64,000 nucleotides of DNA from Polytrichum commune (lineage: Eukaryota; Streptophyta; Polytrichopsida; Polytrichales; Polytrichaceae). Location: positions 28,458,001 through 28,522,000 of the forward strand of contig OX485803.1 of the NCBI GenBank assembly GCA_950295325.1. Reading direction: 5' to 3'. A program made the position numbers and the translations under genes. Shown here piece by piece: positions 2,060-56,714 of the stretch; position 1 is the stretch's first letter, and each line of letters begins with the position of its first letter. Below the pieces are notes generated by a model. That model had not been told where the DNA came from and ran no database searches. It worked only from the letters and a program-made list of their open reading frames with translations.

Positions 2060-3100
2060 TGAATGATTCTAACGATGATGAACCAAAACAAAAGGGTGGG
2101 AGTTGGCCAAGGAGAAGGGCGAATAAAGAGTATTTGGTTGAGATGTACGATAGTTCGCTTTTCAAGGACTATTTCTTGTAGAACCCCATCTTTGATAATG
2201 TTGGTTTTAGATTGTGTATTGCAAGAGGGCACCTATTTTCTTGTGTATATTGGAGGCTGTCACCAACACTGAGCAGTGTTTTATTCGAAAATGGAACGTT
2301 GCAGGCAAGTTGGGATCAGGTTGTCTTCAAAAGGCGATAACTGCAATGCGCACACAAGCATACAAAACATCTTCAAAATTCCAGGAAGAACACAATACGA
2401 TGGCTAAGAGCACTGCCAAGGAGACGATGTTGAGATGGTGCAAGGGGTTAGACGATGTTTTATGGCGTATTGTTTGTAGGATCCTTCATAAGATGATATT
2501 GCGAAACAAATGGAGATCAACCAAGAAAAAGGATGGTCAAGTATGTTTGGTTCCATAGATTGCATGCACTAAAATGGAAATTGTGTTTAGGTGATTTCAA
2601 TGGGCACTTCAAATTTAAATAAAGATGAGAAAAATAGTAGTAGTGGGCAATGTTGGATTATGAGCAAATGAGAACTAGTATGAAGAATATTACCTCCTCA
2701 TCAATGGCATTTATCCCAAGTGGAGTTGCTTCATGCAATTACTTCAAGACCTTGAGGACCAGAAAGAAAGCAAATTCTATAGATCACATGGAATCTACAC
2801 GCAAAAATCTAGGTGATGTTTCGGAATTTTGCAAGTTGTGGAATATGACAAACATTGATGATGTTATGTAAGCATACATTATAATGCATAGTATGATTCT
2901 ACAAGATACAAGCGGCAAAGACTTGGAATTTTTCACACCACAAGTTGCATTTTCATCGTTTGTGGGGCTACATAGAGGTTTCACCTTCGCAAATTTGACT
3001 TCAGAAACCACCCTAATTGAGGACATCGATACTTACTACAACCTGCATGACGATCTTGTGCAACACCTATAGGAATGTAAAGGGTCAAGTTTTTATTGAC
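2060..3100 (+). pseudogene. Decayed PIF/Harbinger transposase
   Basis: Fragments in different frames read like a PIF/Harbinger DDE transposase in order. An N-terminal part (near 2080-2200) has RRRANKEYL and SLFKDYF. A helical segment (near 2310-2480) has AITAMRTQAYKTSS and STAKE. A C-terminal part (near 2800-3070) has LWNMTNIDDVM, MILQD and DIDTYYNLHDDLVQHL. Stops and frameshifts separate the parts. The central catalytic stretch with the DDE residues is not recognisable and seems deleted. It cannot encode a working enzyme. Related MITEs with three-base TWA duplications lie downstream. Assignment rests on remembered family patterns, not a search. Confidence 0.6.
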
Positions 3101-4916
3101 CATATGCATTTGTGTGCATGTTTTGGTTCCCCTGCTTCATGTACTCCACTATTAAAATATTATGTGATTTTATTTTTGTGTGGTCAAGTGCTTGTGTAGA
3201 TATAGATTGCTTGTTGAAGCAATATTTTATGCAACGTTAGAGGAAGTGTTCATGCCTGTAGAAGCAATGGTAATGTTTGCTTATGTTTGTCAATATTGCC
3301 AACCTTTATTGTTTTATGTTGCTACTAGCAATTTTGCTCTTCCATTTCTCCTATTTTTCCCTAGTTTGTGTAAAAACCTGATGCATGTATAGGTTGGGAC
3401 TAAATTGGCGGTAGTAGTGAACAGACTACCTATGAGTCAGACCCCTCCTTGTCTTCAACCTTGAGATCTTTGTCATTGGACATATCAACGTTGGCCCCCT
3501 CGTTCAAGCATAGGTGTAGGTGTGGCAAAGGAGCTCCCTTTCTTGAGAAAGGGAACTTGAGGCGGCAACAATCAATGCAGTTGCGGATCCGAGGACAATC
3601 GGTGTGTACATGCACACACTAACAGTCGGAGTAGTAACCTTGTTGCAACCCTTTACTAGCCCCCTTATCAATATTGCTCATTTTCATTTCTAGCAAGGGT
3701 CACGAGCGCTAACCCTTCGCATTCCGACATGCTAATGTTAGCTCCTCCTACCCCGGACCTTATAGTTCATAGGAGGGGAACCGACCCTCCTACTTTGCTT
3801 TCGAGATTCACCCCTTAATCGGTAACCAATTCTTAGATGTGGACTTCCATCCATGAAAGTCCAACCTTATGTTGATCATCGCGTTGCCGGAGCAACACTA
3901 CAACAACCCAAACCATACTAGGCAACTATGGCCTCACATTGGGCCAATGCCCATGGAGGCCATGCCATTCGGCCTCGGGTGGGTGATGCCACACCACCTC
4001 ACCCATATAAGCCTCTAGGACTCTAGGAAGGGCCCCTACCCCACCGTCAAGAAACCTTTTGTCTCTCTACCAAGAGTTTGGGCCAAGTAGACATTTTCCC
4101 TTAGCCGTTGGACCTAGAAGCCCCTAGCAGCTTCAAACCATCATCACTTCCTTATGTGATCTCTGATGCTAACAAGCGACCCCTTCATCTACGCTTCACG
4201 TAGATACCAATGGACTCCTCACTTGCCCCATTTGGGCAAGTATTGAGGAAGTTATGCCTGTTCAAACCTTGGCAGTCCCGGGAGCCACTCCCAGGCCACC
4301 GCTGTACCAGGGCGCTGTCCCAGGACAGCGCCCCACTCAAATTGTCATATCTCCTAGCACACACCTCCAATTGAGGTGTTCTTGAGCATTTTAGAATTAA
4401 CACGCCATATGCTATGCATAGTTGATGACCTTACCCTTATGCCTCCTAGTCTCCGTGGGTGGAAGGCGTTTCCAACACCCGGGGCCCTCACCCACACTTG
4501 GATCACTTGGGCCCTCTCACCAACATCGCCACAAGTCATGGTGTCACTGCGGGGTCCCCCTTGTGCCCATGGTGTTTCGGGCACTCCTTATGGAGTGGTG
4601 CGCGACAACATAGAAGCATCGTTGCATTACGCTACAAGTGATAAAGGAGTCTTCCAATGTACAAAGGCTGAAGGCATTTTGGTGGGCAATCTTCTAAGCC
4701 TTTTTAAGCATTGCTTGTGTAGACTTGGTAATAGCCCTCACATTCGCCCTCAAGGTTGTTTCCCTTACCTTTATGTCCATGTCATTTGACTTGGCCGACT
4801 TCCCTTTTGATGGCTTATCAGGGCAAATGTTTGCTTGGACACCTTGAGCCTGTTGCTACCCAACCAAAAAAATAGGCCATCTTCCTGTCAATAGGCAAAT
4901 CAGATGCATTCACGTG
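3101..4916. other. Intergenic, no gene recognised
   Basis: Only short open frames without domain character are seen. A perfect 11-bp inverted repeat with a 2-base loop (GGGCGCTGTCC and its complement) sits at 4310-4333. GC content is higher than in most of the window around 3700-4600. Confidence 0.5.
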
Positions 4917-19380: not shown

Positions 19381-20080
19381 GGGTTTGGGTGATGGATGTG
19401 ATGGTGGTGTAGGGAAAATTGGGCTAGTCCGAGGAATTGGAGGCGTCTCCTTTTGTGGAGCATCTGTAGTCTGGACTTGGAATTGGAAGCGGAATATTGA
19501 ACTGAAATATTGAATGTAGTGAAGGGAATGAAAGGCCTATTGTAGTGGTTGGGTGATGGGTGTGACGGTGGTGTAGGAGAAGTTTGCTAATCTGGGAAAT
19601 TGGAGGTGACTCTTCTTGTGGAGCACCTGGAGTTTGGACTTGGAATTGAACCATTGAACTGGAAGTCCGAATGTGGTGAAGGGAATGACCTATTTTGGTG
19701 GTTGGCTGTGTGAGAATTTCTGAGTTTGGATGATGGATGCGATGGTGGTGTAGAAACTTTTTCGGGGAAATTGGAGGTGTCTCTTCTTGTGGAGCAACTC
19801 GAATCTGGGCTTGGAACTGGAAGTGTGAATGTGGTGAAGGGAGTGAATGACCTATTGTAGTGATGGGGTGATGGATGTGATGGTGGCGTAGGAAAGTTTT
19901 GCTAATCCGGGGAATTGGAGGTGTCTCTCCCTGTGGAACAGCTGCAGTCTGGGCTTAGAATTTAAAACCGGGAATACTGAACCTGGAAGTGTGAATGTGG
20001 TGAAGGGAAATTATTGTAGTGGTCTGTACTCTGAGGCTTTTGGGGTGAAGGTGATGGATGTGATGATGGTGAAGGACAGG
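19381..20080 (+). repeat. Tandem array of about 155-170 bp units upstream of the exonuclease
   Basis: Four degenerate units and a partial fifth lie head to tail immediately 5' of the exonuclease start. Each contains TGATGGATGTGATGGTGG, then GGGAAATTGGAGGTGTCT, then TGTGGAGCA, then CTGG-CTTGGAA-TGGAA, then GAATGTGGTGAAGGGAA. The array probably spans promoter and 5' UTR. I see no open frame running through it. Confidence 0.75.
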
Positions 20081-20145
20081 CTGAGAACCATGGCGACGAG
20101 CGATGATATTGGTAGTGATGGAGAAACGGTAAGTTCTTCGCTCAC

Positions 20146-23100
20146 ATGAGGAGGAATTCAGTTGACATGAAGGGCCTGGCTTCTACCTCGTCATCTCTGA
20201 CAGGAAACGTCACGTTCCGCAGCAGCGATGAATGCACAAAAGCCACAAAAGTGGACGACACTCTGCTGCCTGTGGCAGTGAACTCCTTCCTGCCCCCACC
20301 CTCCACACAACAACATCAACAGCAACAACAACATAACCCTGCCACTTGGTTTCTCGGTGGTCACCGAACTAGGGGCAGGAGCGAGAGAGCTTCAACTGCA
20401 ATGTCATGTAGTAGCTCCTCACATGTCAGTGATGGAAATGGGGATGATAAGGGTGAGGAGCAGCCCCAACAACAAAAGGTGCAAGAGCTGCTCCCGGAGA
20501 TGGGTTCTCCATTGGATGGGGGGATGACACATCCGGCTAATAGGAGGGACAGGTCAGAAGAGAGGGAGCGGATGAAGGAGGCTAAAGCAGCAAGGGCGCA
20601 GGCATATGAAGAGCGATGGAACCAGAAGTGTGCACAAGAGACAAGTGAGGACATGGCATTTTCGGGGTGGAAGCAACCCATTGGAAATGCAGAGTATGGT
20701 GGCTGGATGTACCCGGTGGCGAAGGCGAGTCATCAAGAATCCGTGGACAAGAATGCGGAATTGGGGTGGAAGAGAAGCTTGCATCCTGCTGGGGTGAGCG
20801 AGGAGAGAGATTACAGAGGATGGGATTGTCCAGCTTCGTCTCCTTCGTCATCCGAGAAGGAGGATCTGGGCGGCTGGTTGTTTGCACGTGCACAGGTCGA
20901 CCACATCCTGGATGATTATCAAGCAGAAGTGGAAATTCTCGGCAAGAAGGTAAGTACAATCTCTTTCCCTCCCCAGCACTGCAGACATTGTTTCTTTGAA
21001 ATGGACCTGGTTGCTTTCCATTCGGTGGTTATGTTGATTGCAAACACGTGATGATCCTTACTGAGGTCTTAGTCACTTCCCAACACTACAGAAATTAACT
21101 CTTCACATCAACCTGATTGCTTTCTATTTGGTGGTAATGTGGATTGGAAATAAATGATGATCCTTACTCAGGTCTTAGTACATATGCTATACAATATTCC
21201 TCTCCAGCACTACAGAAATTTTATCTTCGAAATTGACCTGGTTTCTTTCCCATTCGGTCGTATGTTGATTGGAAACATGTGATGATCCTTACTCAGGTCT
21301 TAATACACATGCTACATAACGATATGCTATACAAACCATACAACAAGTGTATCTCAATCCCTCCTGTTGACTCGATGTGTTAGTACTCACACAAAATGAT
21401 GTGCAACATGTGGAAACCTTGATTTTGACACAAGGAAACCAAGAGAGACAAGAGAATCTTGAAGTAGGCAAAACGAAAGAACACCCTATTTTTACTACAG
21501 CAAGTGCACTTCAGGCATCTGCATAGCAAATTGTTCTCTCAAATAAAGTGAAGTGTGGCCTTTGGTTTTGCTACTTCTCTCCTGGTTTGGTTTGTTTGTG
21601 TTGAAATTGAGGTCTTAGTACACATGCTATACAACAAGTTGCTCGAGGCTTCCCATTACTTTGGGAGACGAAGCAGAAACTCAAGACAAGGATCCATTGT
21701 TAGGAACTGATGCTGAGGTCAGTGGGGATGTCTCGGAAGGTGGCTTCTTCCATGCAGATAGATTGTTGTGGATTGCCCCCTGTCCAAATGGATTGCCACC
21801 ATTAGGCTATTGCCGCATGTGTGATTTGTTCTCTATTTCAATATAGTTTTTAATTGATTTCTTTTGATTGCTTTGGATGAGTATGTAACTGTAAACGCTT
21901 TGGATGAATCACACTCTTGATTCTCATTTTTTGGTTCACTGTTTACCTTTATCTGTAAGTGTCGTTTGAGCATTGATACTTCGAAGGATAGTCTTGTTGC
22001 AAGTCTTGCGTTTACGTTCCTTACCAGAGGCTTATGATTCTTCTCGAATCAATGAAATTGGAAATGGGGTGGAAAAGGTGATGGTGACGGTGGCAACAAA
22101 AGGAGGGACAGTGGAGTGGTGGTTGGATGGGCACAAAGACGAGGCAGTGTGGGGGCTTGACATCGAGTGGCGACCCACTTTCCAGAAGGGCGACTACCAC
22201 TTCGCATCGCTCCTGCAACTGTCCCTTGAGGATTGTTGTCTACTCATCCAGCTCCAGTTCATTGATGTGTTGCCTGAGTCTCTTAAGAACCTCCTTGCAA
22301 ATTCGCAGATAATGATGGGAGGAGTGGGGATCAAGGTACGGTTTGAGTCTCTTGTCTATCTTCCTGTCGAGAATTTTCTTTGTAATTTGAACCATTGGGA
22401 GGATGTGAATCTTCCAGGAACATCATATGAACTAGGTAATGGATGCGGGGAGCCCTGCCACAGGCTGTAGTAGGCGCCAACCCACCGAGCCGTGGTAGGG
22501 TAGATACGGAAGTACTACAGCTGATGGCAAGGTGACACGTGTCCATAAATGGTCCGGCCATGGCAGGGTCGTCCATTACGTGTGGTACTATGCCTCCTCG
22601 TATCTAATCAGGAAGACATCAGCAACATGGGTTAGCCTAACCACTATGATTAGGGTAATTTGACTCCAGGCCTTCACATGTTCTAGTCCTAATTTCCTAT
22701 TCTAAGGGGAGAAGCTATCGCATTTTCATGGAGAACTGAGAATGCTTGCAGCTGTGCGAGATGCCAGTTGGGCCTTTAATGATATTTGTTTCAATCAAAG
22801 CCAGTAGATGTATAAAACCCTTTAAGAATCAGGAACCTTGTGAGACTTGCAATCTTATCATCGGTTGTGTGTATGGTGTAGGCGGATACAAATAAGCTAA
22901 GGAAGGACTTCAATCTAAATTGTGCTGGGGAAGTTGAGCTGACAACGCTGGCTGTATCCACATTGAAGAACCCTGCTCTGAAGAAAACCGGCCTTGCGAG
23001 TCTCACTGAGATAGTTCTTGGTGTTCCGTACAAGAAAAACAAGCGTACAACCATGAGTAATTGGGAAAACCGTGAGCTCACATATGCACAAATCCAGTAT

Positions 23101-23220
23101 GCTGCTGCAGATGCTTGGTTGTCATATTCCATTCTGGTGGCACTTCTGAATCACAAAGAGAAACCTGCAGTCTCCCACCTCACAGGTTCGGATGAAACTT
23201 CCCTAACACCAGTATTCTGA
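20146..23220 (+). CDS. WEX-like 3'-5' exonuclease with N-terminal Gly-Trp repeats
   Basis: Three exons join in phase 0 (20146-20949, 22030-22335, 22882-23220), giving 482 residues. The C-terminal half is a DEDDy exonuclease of the Werner/RNase D type. Exo I is GLDIEW (Asp312, Glu314), Exo II follows VGIKADTNKL (Asp372), and Exo III is YAAAD (Tyr443, Asp447). All five catalytic residues are present. Such enzymes remove nucleotides from 3' ends, and the Arabidopsis relative WEX is linked to post-transcriptional gene silencing. The N-terminal 268 residues are low-complexity and polar, with a Gln/His stretch and a charged helix. They then carry five GW motifs with Trp at 175, 187, 208, 226 and 244, each in an acidic or Gly-rich setting. 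The start is the first ATG of the open exon, and a further 5' exon cannot be excluded. Intron 1 is about 1.1 kb. The unusual N-terminus is treated in the findings. Confidence 0.88.
20965..21320 (+). repeat. Three-copy repeat inside exonuclease intron 1
   Basis: Units of roughly 115-140 bp share CAGCACTACAGAAATT, ACCTGGTTGCTTTC, TTGATTGGAAACA and TGATGATCCTTACTCAGG. They begin just after the exon 1 donor. A fragment (GGTCTTAGTACACATGC) recurs near 21611. Confidence 0.75.
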
Positions 23221-24655: not shown

Positions 24656-26191
24656 TCATGGGCACGTTTCCCTGAGTCGTAGACATGAACTTACTCGTTG
24701 CCCTTGTCTCAAATCTTGACTTGATCTGCACAAAGCCTCTGCCTGGGTGTCACAACCCTCTGCCTGGGTGTCACAATCCTCCTCTGCCATCTGCAATAAG
24801 ATCTCAGTGGGCTCTACAGGACTACTGATGCTTTCTACTCCTGAAGGTTGCCTTGAAATAGGTTTACCAATCATGTTGGACCGAATTTTGGATGCTTTCA
24901 TCTTTTTCCGAGACTTTGGTTTGGAAGAGCAATCTTCCCTCCTGTGTTTGCCTGTAACAGAAGTCTGGGTGCCTTCCTCTCCCCATCCACCTGCTCCAGC
25001 ATCAAAGGCTCTACCTTCACCAAATAGTATTCCACAATCAATGTCACCGCCCAAATCTGAAGATTCTGGATATTCTTTCATTCTATTACAAGTGGCTGTC
25101 AAAGAAGACTCCTGATCACATCTTATGGGAGTATTCTCATGCATCTCCAATGAAAAGGTGGTTGTCTCTCTGCTTTCAACCTCAATCACATCATGTTGAG
25201 AATTCTCTGCTGCAACAGGCCATCTGCGATATGGCTTTGAACCTGACTGAACATTGTCAAGAACCGAGCTTGCCGATTTTTTTGCTTCCTCTCTCTTCCC
25301 ATAAGGGGCATATACATGCTCCCAACAAAAATCAACCTCATTATTTCTTTCAGCCAGGTGTCCACATAACCAACTTGGAGTCTCTTTCACATCTGATAGA
25401 GCCGCAGAATAAGTTCTGCTCCAGAACTCCGAATTCTTTGGATGAAGGAACGGAGAGAGAGTACTAAACCACGGGGGCCTGCCTGTATCTGGGCTTGCCT
25501 GCCTAGAAGGCAAGGGAATTGGTAGTACCAGATGCGTTGGAGCACTTTCTTCTGCCATTAGTAACCCTCCATGGTTAGAGGAGCGCAGTTGATCAAATAG
25601 AGCCTCAGAATTCTTACCACTCCTCTGCACACACATGCATCTATAAATACTTTGGCGCCTGAATTGGAAGCAACCTGACAACCAGGACTGTGGAAAATGG
25701 AAAGCCCACCAAAAGCCAGCAGGGTACCATTGAGAGAAAGAAAACCTTCTCAAGCATTCATATGTGCATATAGAAGAGGAAGCATGTGATACAGTGCTAA
25801 AATTTTTTTGAATAAAGAGCAGATTGTCAATCATGTGATGGAATCAGTGTTACAATGAGGTTCTTTGTACAAGTTTCTTCAACACACGTTCAAAGAACTA
25901 GAGACTGTCAAGTATGACGCAGGAACAATTTTCAATGTAGCAGTGAACAACAGACAATGGTACTGGAGCTTTGAGCTCACAGTTGTTGTGTCGAGACAAA
26001 ACTAGGCTGTTTCATTCCCAGGCCATCAAGAGAATACAGGCCTCCTCAATTGAACATACCTCACAATGACTTGATAACTCGTTTCCAGTGCTTGACTGTG
26101 ATTGAGCCTGTTGCAAGTCAGATTTCTTGTATCCCCTCTCGCATTGCCAATACTCCATACCTTGTATAGATAGCCCAATCAATCCAGCCAC
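24656..26191 (-). CDS. 3' exons of a diverged DCD-related gene
   Basis: Two exons in phase 0 (26191-26060 and 25624-24656) encode 44 and 322 residues on the minus strand, with GT-AG borders. The first exon, starting VAGLIGLSIQGMEYW and with LQQAQ near its end, aligns without gaps with exon 4 of the intact DCD gene at 51159 (VRKLVALFEQEAKYW, FQQTQ). The last exon is open throughout and unrecognised. It is rich in Ser and Pro, contains aromatic patches such as EFWSRTYSAALSD, a basic cluster KPKSRKKMKASK that could be a nuclear signal, and a 7-residue duplication (CDTQAEG/CDTQAEA). Such a long open exon argues against a simple dead gene, yet the DCD exons upstream are damaged in their ancestral frame. 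The function is unknown. It may be a rapidly diverging or recently disabled paralogue. Confidence 0.55.
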
Positions 26192-49020: not shown

Positions 49021-49165
49021 AATGAAATGGAATCAATTTTTAAAGTCCAAGAAGCCCAAAAAATTAATGCGACTGAACGTACACCATGATCATGGTTTCA
49101 TACCAGCTAGTTTCCTAGAGTGACAAAGTGGGATAGCCTTCGTGAGATAGAGGCTAAATTGAACA
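49021..49165 (+). repeat. Dispersed repeat immediately 5' of the DCD gene
   Basis: Shares about 145 bp with 30475-30620 in the same orientation and ends about 12 bp before the DCD start codon, so it would supply the proximal promoter or 5' UTR. Confidence 0.7.
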
Positions 49166-49177
49166 ACTTATGGTCTT

Positions 49178-51308
49178 ATGAACAAACACGGGACCTTGCA
49201 CAATGTAAATTTACCATTAAAATTATCATCTCATGATGCAGTTGAAAACATTAAAACTGAGATGGGGAGTTATAACTATGAGGCTCTTCATAGGCACACA
49301 CCGGGAATGAAGAGGGCATGGCCGGCCGCAGCTGCTCCGAGGGATGTCTATCTCAACGGCTTCCATCCAGACCCACTAACAAACGGCTATGGTGAATTGT
49401 TCTTGGAACGATTGATGCACCCATGTCCCAATGGCTTGCCGTTGGTGGGAGCTGGTGTCATGCCTGATAGATATTTCAACAAATATGACAATATTCCCAC
49501 CAACCGCTTCGCCGCCAATGGGCTTTCCCCTGCTAATTACATGGGGTTGTTGGAGGCTGAGCGATTTGCTCCCATGTATGCTGGAAACGGAATGTACGTC
49601 CGAGATGCCATGAGAGAGCCTATAATTAGGGAGCTGAGTCCCTCCCCACCCAGGCTTTCCCAACAACAACGGCACATGGCTACTAGTAATGTCAACATTC
49701 AACGCGAACCACCTCCAGAAGCACCTCCGAGCCCCCTCGACCCATTGGAAGATCGAGAGCCCGCTCTTCCAGGGATGATCTTTGGGTGCACGAGTGAGAC
49801 TTATGTTGAATGTATGCAGCTCAAGTTGTTTGCGTTGCCAGCTACAAACAAAAGTCAGGTAGGAATAAGATAAACTATTAATGGCATGTTTTCTTTTTTC
49901 TTTTTTCTTTTCTTCTCTATGGAACCTTTTTTTGGTGAATTAGGTCTTTCGAGAATGTAGAAAGAAGTGAGTGCACCTCCGACGTCGTTTCAAGATCAGC
50001 TTGTGACATGGAGCAGATGAAGTAATGAGTTGTTTGAGTTTGTGATGCACCAGGTCATGCATGTGCATCCAGGAACTAAATTATTCCTCTACAACTATAC
50101 CGAGCGAGAATTGTCAGGGATATTTGAAGCAACATCCTATGGTGACATGGACATTATACCGGATGCTTTCCGCCATTGGGGGTCATTCCCAGCTCAAGTA
50201 TTCTCACCACCCGCGCTCAAGCCTCATCTTGATTTTTGGCACGTCTTTGGTGTTTTTGACATGGTGTTTTGGTAAGTACAATGTGATGTGTCTTTGCATC
50301 CACATGGAATCAGAAGATGATTTGCATAGTCACAAGAGCTTGAGACAGTGAAGATTGAAGCAAATGCATATTGCAGGTGAGGATTCGCTGTGTTGAGAAA
50401 TGCCCAAACTTGCTGCTGAAGGCATTCAAGGAAGCCATTAGCGAGAACTTTGAAAAGAAAGGAAACAAATTTAAGTATGATCTGAATGAAACTCAGGTGT
50501 GCATCTCATGTATTCTATACGATGCAACTTATACTGAAACGCAGGTTTTTGCAAAAATTGAACTCACATTAGTATAATATTCTACATGGCATGTACGTTG
50601 ACAACCTTGCACTTTGATCCTCAACATCAAGGCTTGAGCTAAAACCTAAACATTCTCACACAAGCGAATAATATTATATTGAAAAATGCTTTTATTAATT
50701 GGAAAATGATACTTGAAACATGTCCAAGTCCACCCAATAGATAATTTCTCATGTCATAGAAGTAGTATAGAGATCTATCGCCAAAATTGGCACTTCGTTG
50801 GATTTCACTACTGCAAAAGGTGATACATTTTGTCACAAGGATTGTTTGGAAGATGTAGTGAAACATGTCGCCAACATGGTATTTAAATTTTGAGCCCAAT
50901 GTGCATGCTTTGGGCAATCATGGATTTATTAAGGTGTCTAATACTTCTAGAATAATCAAAGCCATCTAATCTTCTTTGTTAGTTGCATGTATCTTTTCTT
51001 TTTTTTCTTGGCTTCATACATGCCTTTCCTTGTGCCTTGGAAACACACACAACCTTGGAAGTTGGAACTCATTATAGTTTCTATGAGCATGATGTGAGAG
51101 AAATATTCATGGAAATGTCAACTTGATAATGACTCTTGAACGAATTGTCAAATTACAGGTCCGTAAATTGGTTGCACTATTCGAACAGGAGGCAAAATAT
51201 TGGGAACACCATAGGGAAATTGAGCAACACAAATTTCAACAAACACAACGACTACAACCAGGGCTACGATCAGCCTATCCAAATGCAAACAAGGTGTGTT
51301 GTATATGA
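49178..51308 (+). CDS. DCD-domain (development and cell death) protein
   Basis: Four exons in phase 0 (49178-49858, 50054-50197, 50377-50496, 51159-51308) give 364 residues. The N-terminal 195 residues are Pro-, Asn- and aromatic-rich and unrecognised. The DCD domain runs from about residue 205 to 330. It has the signature IFGC...T..EC, LFALP, a PGTKLFLYNY block, SGIFEATS.GDMDI, the PAQVRIR block, LKAFKEAI and VRKLVALF. DCD proteins are plant-specific; some (NRP types) act in ER-stress and osmotic-stress cell-death signalling and tend to be cytosolic. After the domain a Gln-rich coiled segment leads to a TGA. An alternative donor just before that stop (AAG-GTGTGT, 51294) and coding-like text beyond it suggest that the protein could be, or once was, longer. 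The start is the ATG at the head of a long open exon. Immediately upstream is a dispersed repeat. A decayed paralogue lies at 24.7-27.3 kb. Confidence 0.88.
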
Positions 51309-54327: not shown

Positions 54328-56316
54328 CTAGTCAATCTTGACAGACGAGAAGAGGTAGTGGACAAAATAGAAGGACGTCAGGAACCCGATTGTGCCGGTC
54401 GCAAGCAAGATGGCAATCACCATCAGTAAGGAGTACCCCACATACAACACTGCCGATACCGGGCCGCTCAAGCTGTGCAGGTCGAATACTAGATAGTTGA
54501 TCGAATACAGGAACACATAAAGAGACACCGAACCAGAGGCGAAGAAGGCCTTCCACCACCACCGATGGTCCTCCACGCATAGATGCATGTAGGTCAACAC
54601 CACAGCCACCTCTGCACACACGATCACCAGAAGCACCAACACCACGAACAAAAACCCAAACACGTAGTACACGCGCCCCATCCAGATGCTCGACATGATG
54701 AAGAACAGCTCGATGAACAGCGTTCCGAACGGGAGTGTGCCGGCACCCAACACCAACAGCCATGACGGGTACTTTTGGGGAGGAATTTCTCGTGGGATCT
54801 GGTTCGTCCTCACCGGGAACGAGATCGGTTCGGCCCGAGCACCCAGGTACCCACCCAAGAACGTCAAAGGGACGGAGATGGTGAACCACAGAAGAATCAG
54901 GATGAAGTAAAGAGAAATGGGAATGGCTCCCGTGCTGTCGTTCCTCCACAAGATGAAATTCAGCACGGTCAGGATTGTGAACACAATCCCTGGGAAAAAG
55001 CACGCTGTTTTCCAAGCGATGGCTTTCCAGCTGGCGGTGTTGCCCTTCAGGGTGCACCACATTCGGGAGGCAACGTACCCGGCAATGATTCCCAGAAACA
55101 GGTACAGCAACACCATGCCAGTCAGCAGCATTCCGCGAGAGGCAGGGGACATGAATCCCAAAGCGGCGAACAGGATGGTAACCACGGCCATTCCTAATAT
55201 TTGAACACCATCGCCCACCACGATGCAAAGAAGTTGCGAATTTTGAGGCGCACGGAACACATCGCCCACCACCAACTTCCATCCGGACAGCTCTTCTGCC
55301 ATTTGCGCTTGAGCTTCCTTGTCCAGCTCCTCGTACTTGGTCAAGTCACGTCGTACTGTCCTCAAGAAAATCACAAACACGATACCAGCTAAGAATGAGA
55401 TAACCATGAGAGAGTTTAGAATTGAGAACCAGTGCACTCGCGCACCCTCCATCTTCAGATACGCATCCCACCTACTGGGCCACCGGATGTCGCTCTTCTC
55501 GAAGGTGACATCGTAGGAAAACACAATCTGTTCACCGGTCTTCACAGGCTGGTGAAGCCCCTCAGGGTTGCAATCGGATTGTGGAAGACTGCCATATATC
55601 TCGACAGCAGCTGCGGCCTTGGCATCCCGCGGAACGCTGCATGGAGTTACCTCAAATCCCACCACCATGTATGTCCCAGTCAAGTTCTGATAATTGACAG
55701 TGGGAATAGCATCAAGACCATCGCCTGTTCCCATCACAGCTCCCCGAGACGTATCCACGTCATATGCATGAACAAGGACTTTAAACCTCAGGTGATTGTA
55801 GATGTAGTGCGTGGTGTCCCCATCTAACTTGAACCCGATTGGTGACCCAGTCCAGCGCATAGGAGCATTCGATTCCTTCGACTTGGTATACCGCGTCACT
55901 GGCAGACTGTCCAGCATCAGGTTCACCTGGTAATAATCGTCGATCCTCTGCTGAAAATGCTTCACATCATTGTCAGTGAGAGCCGGGGCGATGCACAGCT
56001 TTACATCACTCTCCTCCTTCATCATCGTAAACCGATACGGCGAATTCTCAATTTGATCCCCCATGAGCAGCTCTCCAATATTTTCCGCCACTTTCTTAAT
56101 TCCATCTTCCGGCTTGCAGAAAGGCAAACTATAATACGAGTAAGGCAGCTCAGTCTCAATCGAAGTAATCGAGTTCACCTTCACATCGAGCTTATCCCCT
56201 TCGCGATAGGGATGTAAGTAGCTCCCTGGCAGGTAAAAACCACTCACAGGAGCACACAGCAAAAACGCACACAAAAAAACCACCATCACCACAGGCTTGG
56301 CCACCATGGCAGCCAT
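54328..56316 (-). CDS. TM9SF / nonaspanin (EMP70 family) membrane protein
   Basis: One uninterrupted exon encodes 662 residues from the ATG at 56316; a second Met three codons later is possible. Residues 1-26 form a signal peptide (hydrophobic core VVMVVFLCAFLL, cleavage near PVSG). A large luminal domain to about residue 296 opens with FYLPGSYLHPY and contains ELPYSYYSLPFC, both hallmarks of the family. Nine hydrophobic spans follow, starting near SLMVISFLAGIVFVIFL. The protein ends in FSSVKID, matching the conserved KxD/E-type C-terminus that binds COPI/COPII coats and retains these proteins in the Golgi. The length fits the 640-680 residue norm. Nonaspanins act in endomembrane sorting of transmembrane cargo and in Golgi or endosome function. 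The lack of introns is shared with a subgroup of plant members and could reflect ancient retroposition. No damage is seen. Confidence 0.97.
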   Translation of the reverse strand: MAAMVAKPVVMVVFLCAFLLCAPVSGFYLPGSYLHPYREGDKLDVKVNSITSIETELPYSYYSLPFCKPEDGIKKVAENIGELLMGDQIENSPYRFTMMKEESDVKLCIAPALTDNDVKHFQQRIDDYYQVNLMLDSLPVTRYTKSKESNAPMRWTGSPIGFKLDGDTTHYIYNHLRFKVLVHAYDVDTSRGAVMGTGDGLDAIPTVNYQNLTGTYMVVGFEVTPCSVPRDAKAAAAVEIYGSLPQSDCNPEGLHQPVKTGEQIVFSYDVTFEKSDIRWPSRWDAYLKMEGARVHWFSILNSLMVISFLAGIVFVIFLRTVRRDLTKYEELDKEAQAQMAEELSGWKLVVGDVFRAPQNSQLLCIVVGDGVQILGMAVVTILFAALGFMSPASRGMLLTGMVLLYLFLGIIAGYVASRMWCTLKGNTASWKAIAWKTACFFPGIVFTILTVLNFILWRNDSTGAIPISLYFILILLWFTISVPLTFLGGYLGARAEPISFPVRTNQIPREIPPQKYPSWLLVLGAGTLPFGTLFIELFFIMSSIWMGRVYYVFGFLFVVLVLLVIVCAEVAVVLTYMHLCVEDHRWWWKAFFASGSVSLYVFLYSINYLVFDLHSLSGPVSAVLYVGYSLLMVIAILLATGTIGFLTSFYFVHYLFSSVKID

Positions 56317-56714
56317 GGCTCCCACGGACAAACCCTCGTACCAAACCCTCGCAAGCCTCAAACCCTAGTTCTCTGTTCTCACATCATTTCTATACACTAT
56401 GCATCCCCGCATGACTTCGTTCATACGGCTCACCTCCCTGAACTCCACAACTCCGCTACACCGCCCCCTCCAGTCGAAAAATCGGAGGCCTATCAATGCA
56501 AGCTCGGAACCCTAGTTCCTCCTGTTTCCACAAGAAATGACTGTAGAGTATTTAGGAAGCGTGAGTCTCGGCTTGAGTTTTTTTTTCTGGTTTGTTGGCT
56601 GCTTATGTGAATGTTCCGAGAAGAGTAGAGCTCCGGAGACACATCCAAAGGCGGGGTCACGCCTGCTGCAAGGCGAGAGCGAGCCAAGGGACGTGCGATG
56701 AAGAACCAGGGAGT

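Follow-up and report, generated by a model that had tools for sequence, protein, structure and literature searches.

A gene at 20146–23220 on the plus strand of a 64,000-nucleotide stretch of Polytrichum commune DNA (hereafter the window) is predicted from the genomic sequence to be an intact plant gene for a DEDDy exonuclease of the WRN/WEX type, in which a 268-residue N-terminal arm with five Gly-Trp (GW) pairs is fused to the catalytic domain. A sister gene on another contig, C4, likewise joins a GW-enriched arm to a WEX-type exonuclease. The gene structure, the fusion, the catalytic residues and the excess of GW in both sisters are read from the sequence.

The gene model contains three exons. 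Exon 1 (20146–20949) encodes the arm, in which a poly-Q stretch is followed by the GW segment (20665–20877) and a terminal EVEILGKK (20926–20949), whose codons are adjoined by a GTAAGT donor. A first-order Markov model gives the 310-codon open frame around exon 1 a probability of ∼9e-6 in this region. Intron 1 (20950–22077, ∼1.1 kb) leads to exon 2 (22078–22335), which encodes the first half of the exonuclease, and intron 2 (22336–22881) to exon 3 (22882–23220), which encodes the second half and the stop codon. Two acceptors are available for intron 1: that ending at 22077 gives a protein of 466 residues, and that ending at 22029 (exon 2 from 22030) gives one of 482 residues, with 16 residues extra. 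The 22029 acceptor has, by eye, the better pyrimidine tract. The start of exon 2 at 22078 is nevertheless the more likely one because the 16 extra residues are missing from the C4 and C6 paralogues, and the junction that it predicts is free of gaps (EVEILGKK-VMVTVA here, EVTIIGAK-VLVTVA in C4 and EVSVAGKS-IVVTIT in C6). The sequence of the GW arm is identical under either acceptor. The proposed start ATG at 20146 is overlapped by another frame (19892–20149), which contains a GTAAGT as well as several ATGs, among them one at 20090, and is possibly an upstream frame or an alternative first exon.

Directly upstream of the gene lies an imperfect tandem repeat with a unit of ∼163 bp (19385–19688, by eye to about 20080), which yields a repetitive, His/Pro-rich frame of 176 residues on the minus strand (19427–19954) with no Pfam match. 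Elsewhere, the window contains an EMP70 gene that occupies one open frame (54334–56364, minus strand, E = 2.3e-184), a 394-residue frame with no Pfam match (24662–25843, minus strand) and a frame at 49163–49867 (plus strand) that ends in a weak Dev_Cell_Death match below the cut-off.

Exons 2 and 3 together encode a PF01612 domain, scoring 59.1 bits against a cut-off of 23.6 (E = 6.5e-16). At E up to 0.001, the domain has six matches in the PDB: three WRN sequences (5.6e-21 to 2.1e-19), EXD2 (4.8e-17), diDNase (3.2e-4) and a MUT-7 homologue (7jw2, 4.2e-4). The window exonuclease is nearer to WRN than to the other PF01612 types with solved structures. All five DEDDy residues are present, the motifs GLDIEW, KADTNKL and YAAADA being aligned with WRN: D296 (22159–22161) and E298 (22165–22167) form the DxE motif in exon 2, and D356 (22885–22887), Y427 (23098–23100) and D431 (23110–23112) are encoded by exon 3. 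We take these D, E, D, Y and D positions to be the catalytic residues of a WRN-type exonuclease. The protein is thus a predicted DEDDy 3′–5′ exonuclease of the WRN/WEX type, and the complete DEDDy exonuclease described in the initial annotation is borne out by the domain score, the best PDB match and the five residues. The PF01612 DEDDy domain and the five catalytic residues are common to the window protein, Arabidopsis WEX and human WRN, from which the window protein differs by its extra 268-residue arm with GW pairs, in a comparison that rests on alignment with WRN. We know of no plant WEX with a GW arm, and none is described in the titles and abstract openings of the literature matches listed.

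The genome searched comprises 407.8 Mb in 64 contigs, seven of which account for 406.1 Mb, and contains 11 exon-level PF01612 matches. Four genes were assigned to the WEX type by similarity to the window exonuclease, namely the window gene (contig C1) and one gene each on C4, C6 and C7 (24.7 Mb). Their exonuclease identities divide them into two pairs, C1–C4 (54.9%) and C6–C7 (66.7%), with 37.7 to 45.4% between the pairs, and the catalytic residues are kept in all four (alignment, by eye). The readable N-terminus of the C6 paralogue (222 residues from two exons that were joined by eye) contains two Trp and no GW or WG; for the C7 paralogue, neither its locus (L010) nor a further 9.9 kb upstream yielded N-terminal exons. 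Within the WEX type, the GW arm is a feature of the pair formed by the window and C4 genes, and is absent from the single readable gene (C6) of the other pair. Among the other PF01612 matches, that on C2 is Rrp6-like by eye and further ones are located on C3, C5 and C7 (29.2 Mb); C3 also has a weak exonuclease match at 57.97 Mb (E = 0.004). The match on C12 is a phage-like DNA polymerase. This 61-kb contig (L003) contains, by eye, phage-like frames resembling a DNA polymerase of the A family and a DNA methyltransferase, and is probably a contaminant of the plant assembly.

Translation from the ATG at 20146 exactly reproduces the five GW pairs that the initial annotation had listed, G174-W175 (20665–20670), G186-W187 (20701–20706), G207-W208 (20764–20769), G225-W226 (20818–20823) and G243-W244 (20872–20877), with Trp-to-Trp spacings of 12, 21, 18 and 18 residues. 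The two other Trp of the arm, W68 and W158, have no neighbouring Gly. When the arm was permuted, such a proportion of Gly-adjacent Trp (five of seven) was reached in a fraction of 0.00096 of 200,000 trials and 0.00108 of 50,000, a p value (∼0.001) that is partly post hoc since the region was chosen for its GW. The exon 1 frame is the only one of 117 window frames (at least 80 residues, stop to stop) with more than two GW/WG per 80 residues. When 120 frames from eight other loci are included, at least three GW/WG per 80 residues occur in two of the 237 frames, which are the window and C4 arms; these frames are mostly non-coding and overlapping, and the background that they provide therefore applies to random frames rather than to disordered proteins. 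The DNA repeats within exon 1 leave the GW series uncovered. A genome-wide search with a nucleotide pattern of three GW codons was useless, giving 5,420 matches where the reversed pattern gave 2,991, and many of its first-listed places were simple repeats.

The window arm has no match in Pfam or the PDB (each at E up to 1). Neither arm sequence recurs elsewhere in the genome: the search with one found only itself, and that with the other added no more than two matches at E = 0.98 to its own locus. A simple hydropathy-charge index of the FoldIndex type (51-residue segments, starts 1 to 201) is negative in eight of nine segments and positive at 226–276, the stretch containing W226 and W244; the arm is putatively disordered.

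The C4 sister encodes 553 residues on the minus strand (2478–3839 and 1027–1326 of locus L009, G000:C4:10461000-10467500). It was found by PF01612 and exonuclease similarity, regardless of GW, and its arm is therefore a better test of GW excess than the window region, which was picked for its GW. Six of the nine Trp in the C4 arm are adjacent to Gly, where 1.87 are expected (permutation p = 0.0035). GW/WG are thereby enriched in the closest relative available, which comes from the same genome; the initial annotation had asked for GW conservation in close relatives. In the C4 sister, one exon runs in a single uninterrupted frame from the arm into the exonuclease, whose first half it also encodes; intron 1 of the window gene has no counterpart there, and intron 2 is at the same position (GVGIK / AD). 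Alignment of the two arms does not rise above the level of shuffled sequences (local score 38, against 41.4 ± 7.2 for shuffles), and within this single genome it lends no support to a common origin of the arms. By eye, RG/RGG-rich stretches occur in the C4 arm and also in the tail of the SPT6L-like gene on C7.

Collinearity of the two loci was not established by tblastn of the window frames against the 39.7 kb flanking the C4 sister. Besides the gene itself, matches came from frames at 42.1–43.5 kb of the window, and these probably reflect a DNA repeat because several frames on both strands hit the same places. Frames at 30.6–31.7 kb match the unexpected side of the C4 sister gene, and one further match spans 16 residues.

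The residues flanking the Trp were compared with those of Argonaute hooks from the same genome. The reference set comprises hand-trimmed GW-rich frames (140 Trp) adjoining SH2_2 in two genes and DUF3223 in two others. All four loci (L013, L014, L017 and L019) have long GW tails, and their SH2_2 (SPT6-like) and DUF3223 (Pol V-like) domains suggest that two of the genes are SPT6L-like and two NRPE1-like. The flank matrix was built from these four genes, and is not a published matrix; applied with one gene left out at a time, it gives the hook genes medians of 8.1, 6.4, 4.2 and 5.6 and 10th percentiles of 0.3, −0.7, −3.9 and −4.1. For the five window motifs, the scores are −1.7, −7.5, −6.0, −1.7 and −6.0, all below the median of each hook gene; two of them exceed the NRPE1-like 10th percentiles, and none exceeds the SPT6L-like ones. 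Their mean of −4.6 compares with −2.2 ± 2.45 for random flanks (arm composition, Gly fixed), and is reached by a fraction of 0.84 of this null. On this genome-built matrix, the five motifs that the initial annotation had likened to an Argonaute-binding platform are no better than random flanks. The six GW/WG motifs of the C4 arm score −2.0, −1.1, 1.2, −0.3, −0.4 and 6.5; all are above the NRPE1-like 10th percentiles and one reaches the hook medians, and their mean (0.64; random flanks −1.56 ± 2.13, P = 0.15) is within chance. A published rule for annotating plant hooks calls for at least three Wsearch motifs scoring at least 6, as given in PMC10991848.

No residue recurs significantly at any one flank position of the five window motifs (best three of five, null P = 0.41). 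Position −3 is hydrophobic in four of the five (F, Y, Y and L; by eye, with no chance comparison), and the motifs do not show the small, polar and acidic flanks, rich in G/S/D/N, of Argonaute-hook proteins. Trp-Gly pairing is non-random in both arms, yet the window flanks are not of the hook type. Judged from these sequence features, the C4 sister is plausibly the likelier Argonaute binder of the two. The window copy may bind weakly, may have another partner or may be losing the function.

PF02171 has 23 exon-level matches in the genome, which represent about seven loci. The Trp pockets were examined in four of these (L020–L023), the others being two on C5 and one on C3. In worm ALG-1, the pocket residues are given as P733, F802, K803 and E838 (PMC5147811). 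Mapped through the sequence and numbering of human AGO2, the equivalents of P733, K803 and E838 are kept in the AGO1-like L022 (C7) and L023 (C4), with a Gln at F802, giving three of the four pocket residues; L020 and L021 differ in sequence around the E838 position. In TNRC6, Trp are described as spaced by ten residues or more (PMC9262622), and the window spacings of 12 to 21 residues lie within this range. The Argonaute recruitment put forward in the initial annotation is supported by motif spacing, partly supported by the pockets, which are kept in two of the four loci examined, and not supported by the flanks.

Plant AGO-hook proteins include NRPE1, SPT5L, SPT6L, SDE3 and NERD. Like these, the window protein joins a putatively disordered arm with repeated GW to a domain of catalytic or structural function. 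It has few motifs, five GW, where the genome's four SPT6L/NRPE1-like hooks have 12 to 46 GW/WG. Arabidopsis WEX is reportedly required for post-transcriptional silencing (Glazov 2003, as cited in PMC8062710 and PMC8700014). RICE1 and RICE2 are described as Arabidopsis exoribonucleases of WRN fold that act with AGO (PMC5451212). Unlike the window protein, which has both, RICE reportedly has neither the DEDD motif nor an active-site Tyr (PMC5451212); with its DEDDy set intact, the window exonuclease does not show the non-canonical residues of the RICE type, and its search of the PDB at E up to 0.001 (six matches) gave no RICE entry. The term 'GW motif' is absent from the main text of PMC5451212, as far as that text was available. 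C. elegans MUT-7 is described as having a 3′–5′ exonuclease domain and acting in small-RNA silencing (PMC7946423), and the sequence match of its homologue 7jw2 to the window exonuclease is weak (E = 0.00042).

We infer a tethering role, a partner and an RNA substrate from these comparisons. A long arm would keep its Trp-Gly pairs while the remaining arm sequence drifts freely; such an arm would tether the exonuclease flexibly, through several contacts, to a partner with Trp pockets. Argonaute is the leading candidate for this partner, because WEX is reportedly needed for silencing and RICE1/2 works with AGO, and RNA ends would then be trimmed at silencing complexes. We put this reading forward tentatively, as possible and short of probable for the window copy and with somewhat more confidence in Argonaute tethering for the C4 copy.

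A second reading, which we consider rather unlikely, is that the arm is a weakly constrained linker whose GW cluster is due to chance or is a relict. The selection of the window for its pattern, the random-like flanks and the failure of the two arms to align are in keeping with a linker, but the excess in the C4 sister was found independently of GW (p = 0.0035), and none of the further frames examined holds at least three GW/WG per 80 residues. It is also conceivable, though in our view unlikely, that a functional Trp-Gly arm binds a partner other than Argonaute, such as a decay factor or deadenylase that has aromatic pockets, or promotes the formation of condensates, the exonuclease then serving general RNA or DNA end processing. 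The GW/WG excess in both sisters would fit such a partner, as would the window flanks, which are unlike those of hooks and hydrophobic at −3 (F, Y, Y and L) in four of five motifs; GW182, described as also attracting CCR4-NOT (PMC10991848), is a precedent. Against it, the window arm resembles nothing in Pfam or the PDB at the E values searched.

The Argonaute reading can be extended to the pair as a whole, in that the window and C4 genes would each be a WEX with its own covalent Argonaute tether for 3′-end trimming at silencing complexes, the two arms preferring different Argonautes; this we regard as quite unlikely. That exon 1 belongs to a separate gene or a mis-spliced model, as the 1.1-kb intron 1 with its ambiguous acceptor (22029 or 22077) might allow, is highly improbable, because the C4 sister has the arm and the start of the exonuclease in one exon and because EVEILGKK aligns, as a short match of ∼8 residues, with EVTIIGAK (C4), EVSVAGKS (C6) and EVTAGAKQ (C7) directly before the exonuclease domain, so that the fusion claimed in the initial annotation is supported.

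To our knowledge, there is no explanation of how Arabidopsis WEX acts in silencing. If the Argonaute reading is true, a built-in GW arm would be a direct physical route from a WEX exonuclease to Argonaute; if the partner is not Argonaute, plant GW arms would serve other recruiters. Under either reading, the C4 sister would be a sharper test object than the window gene.
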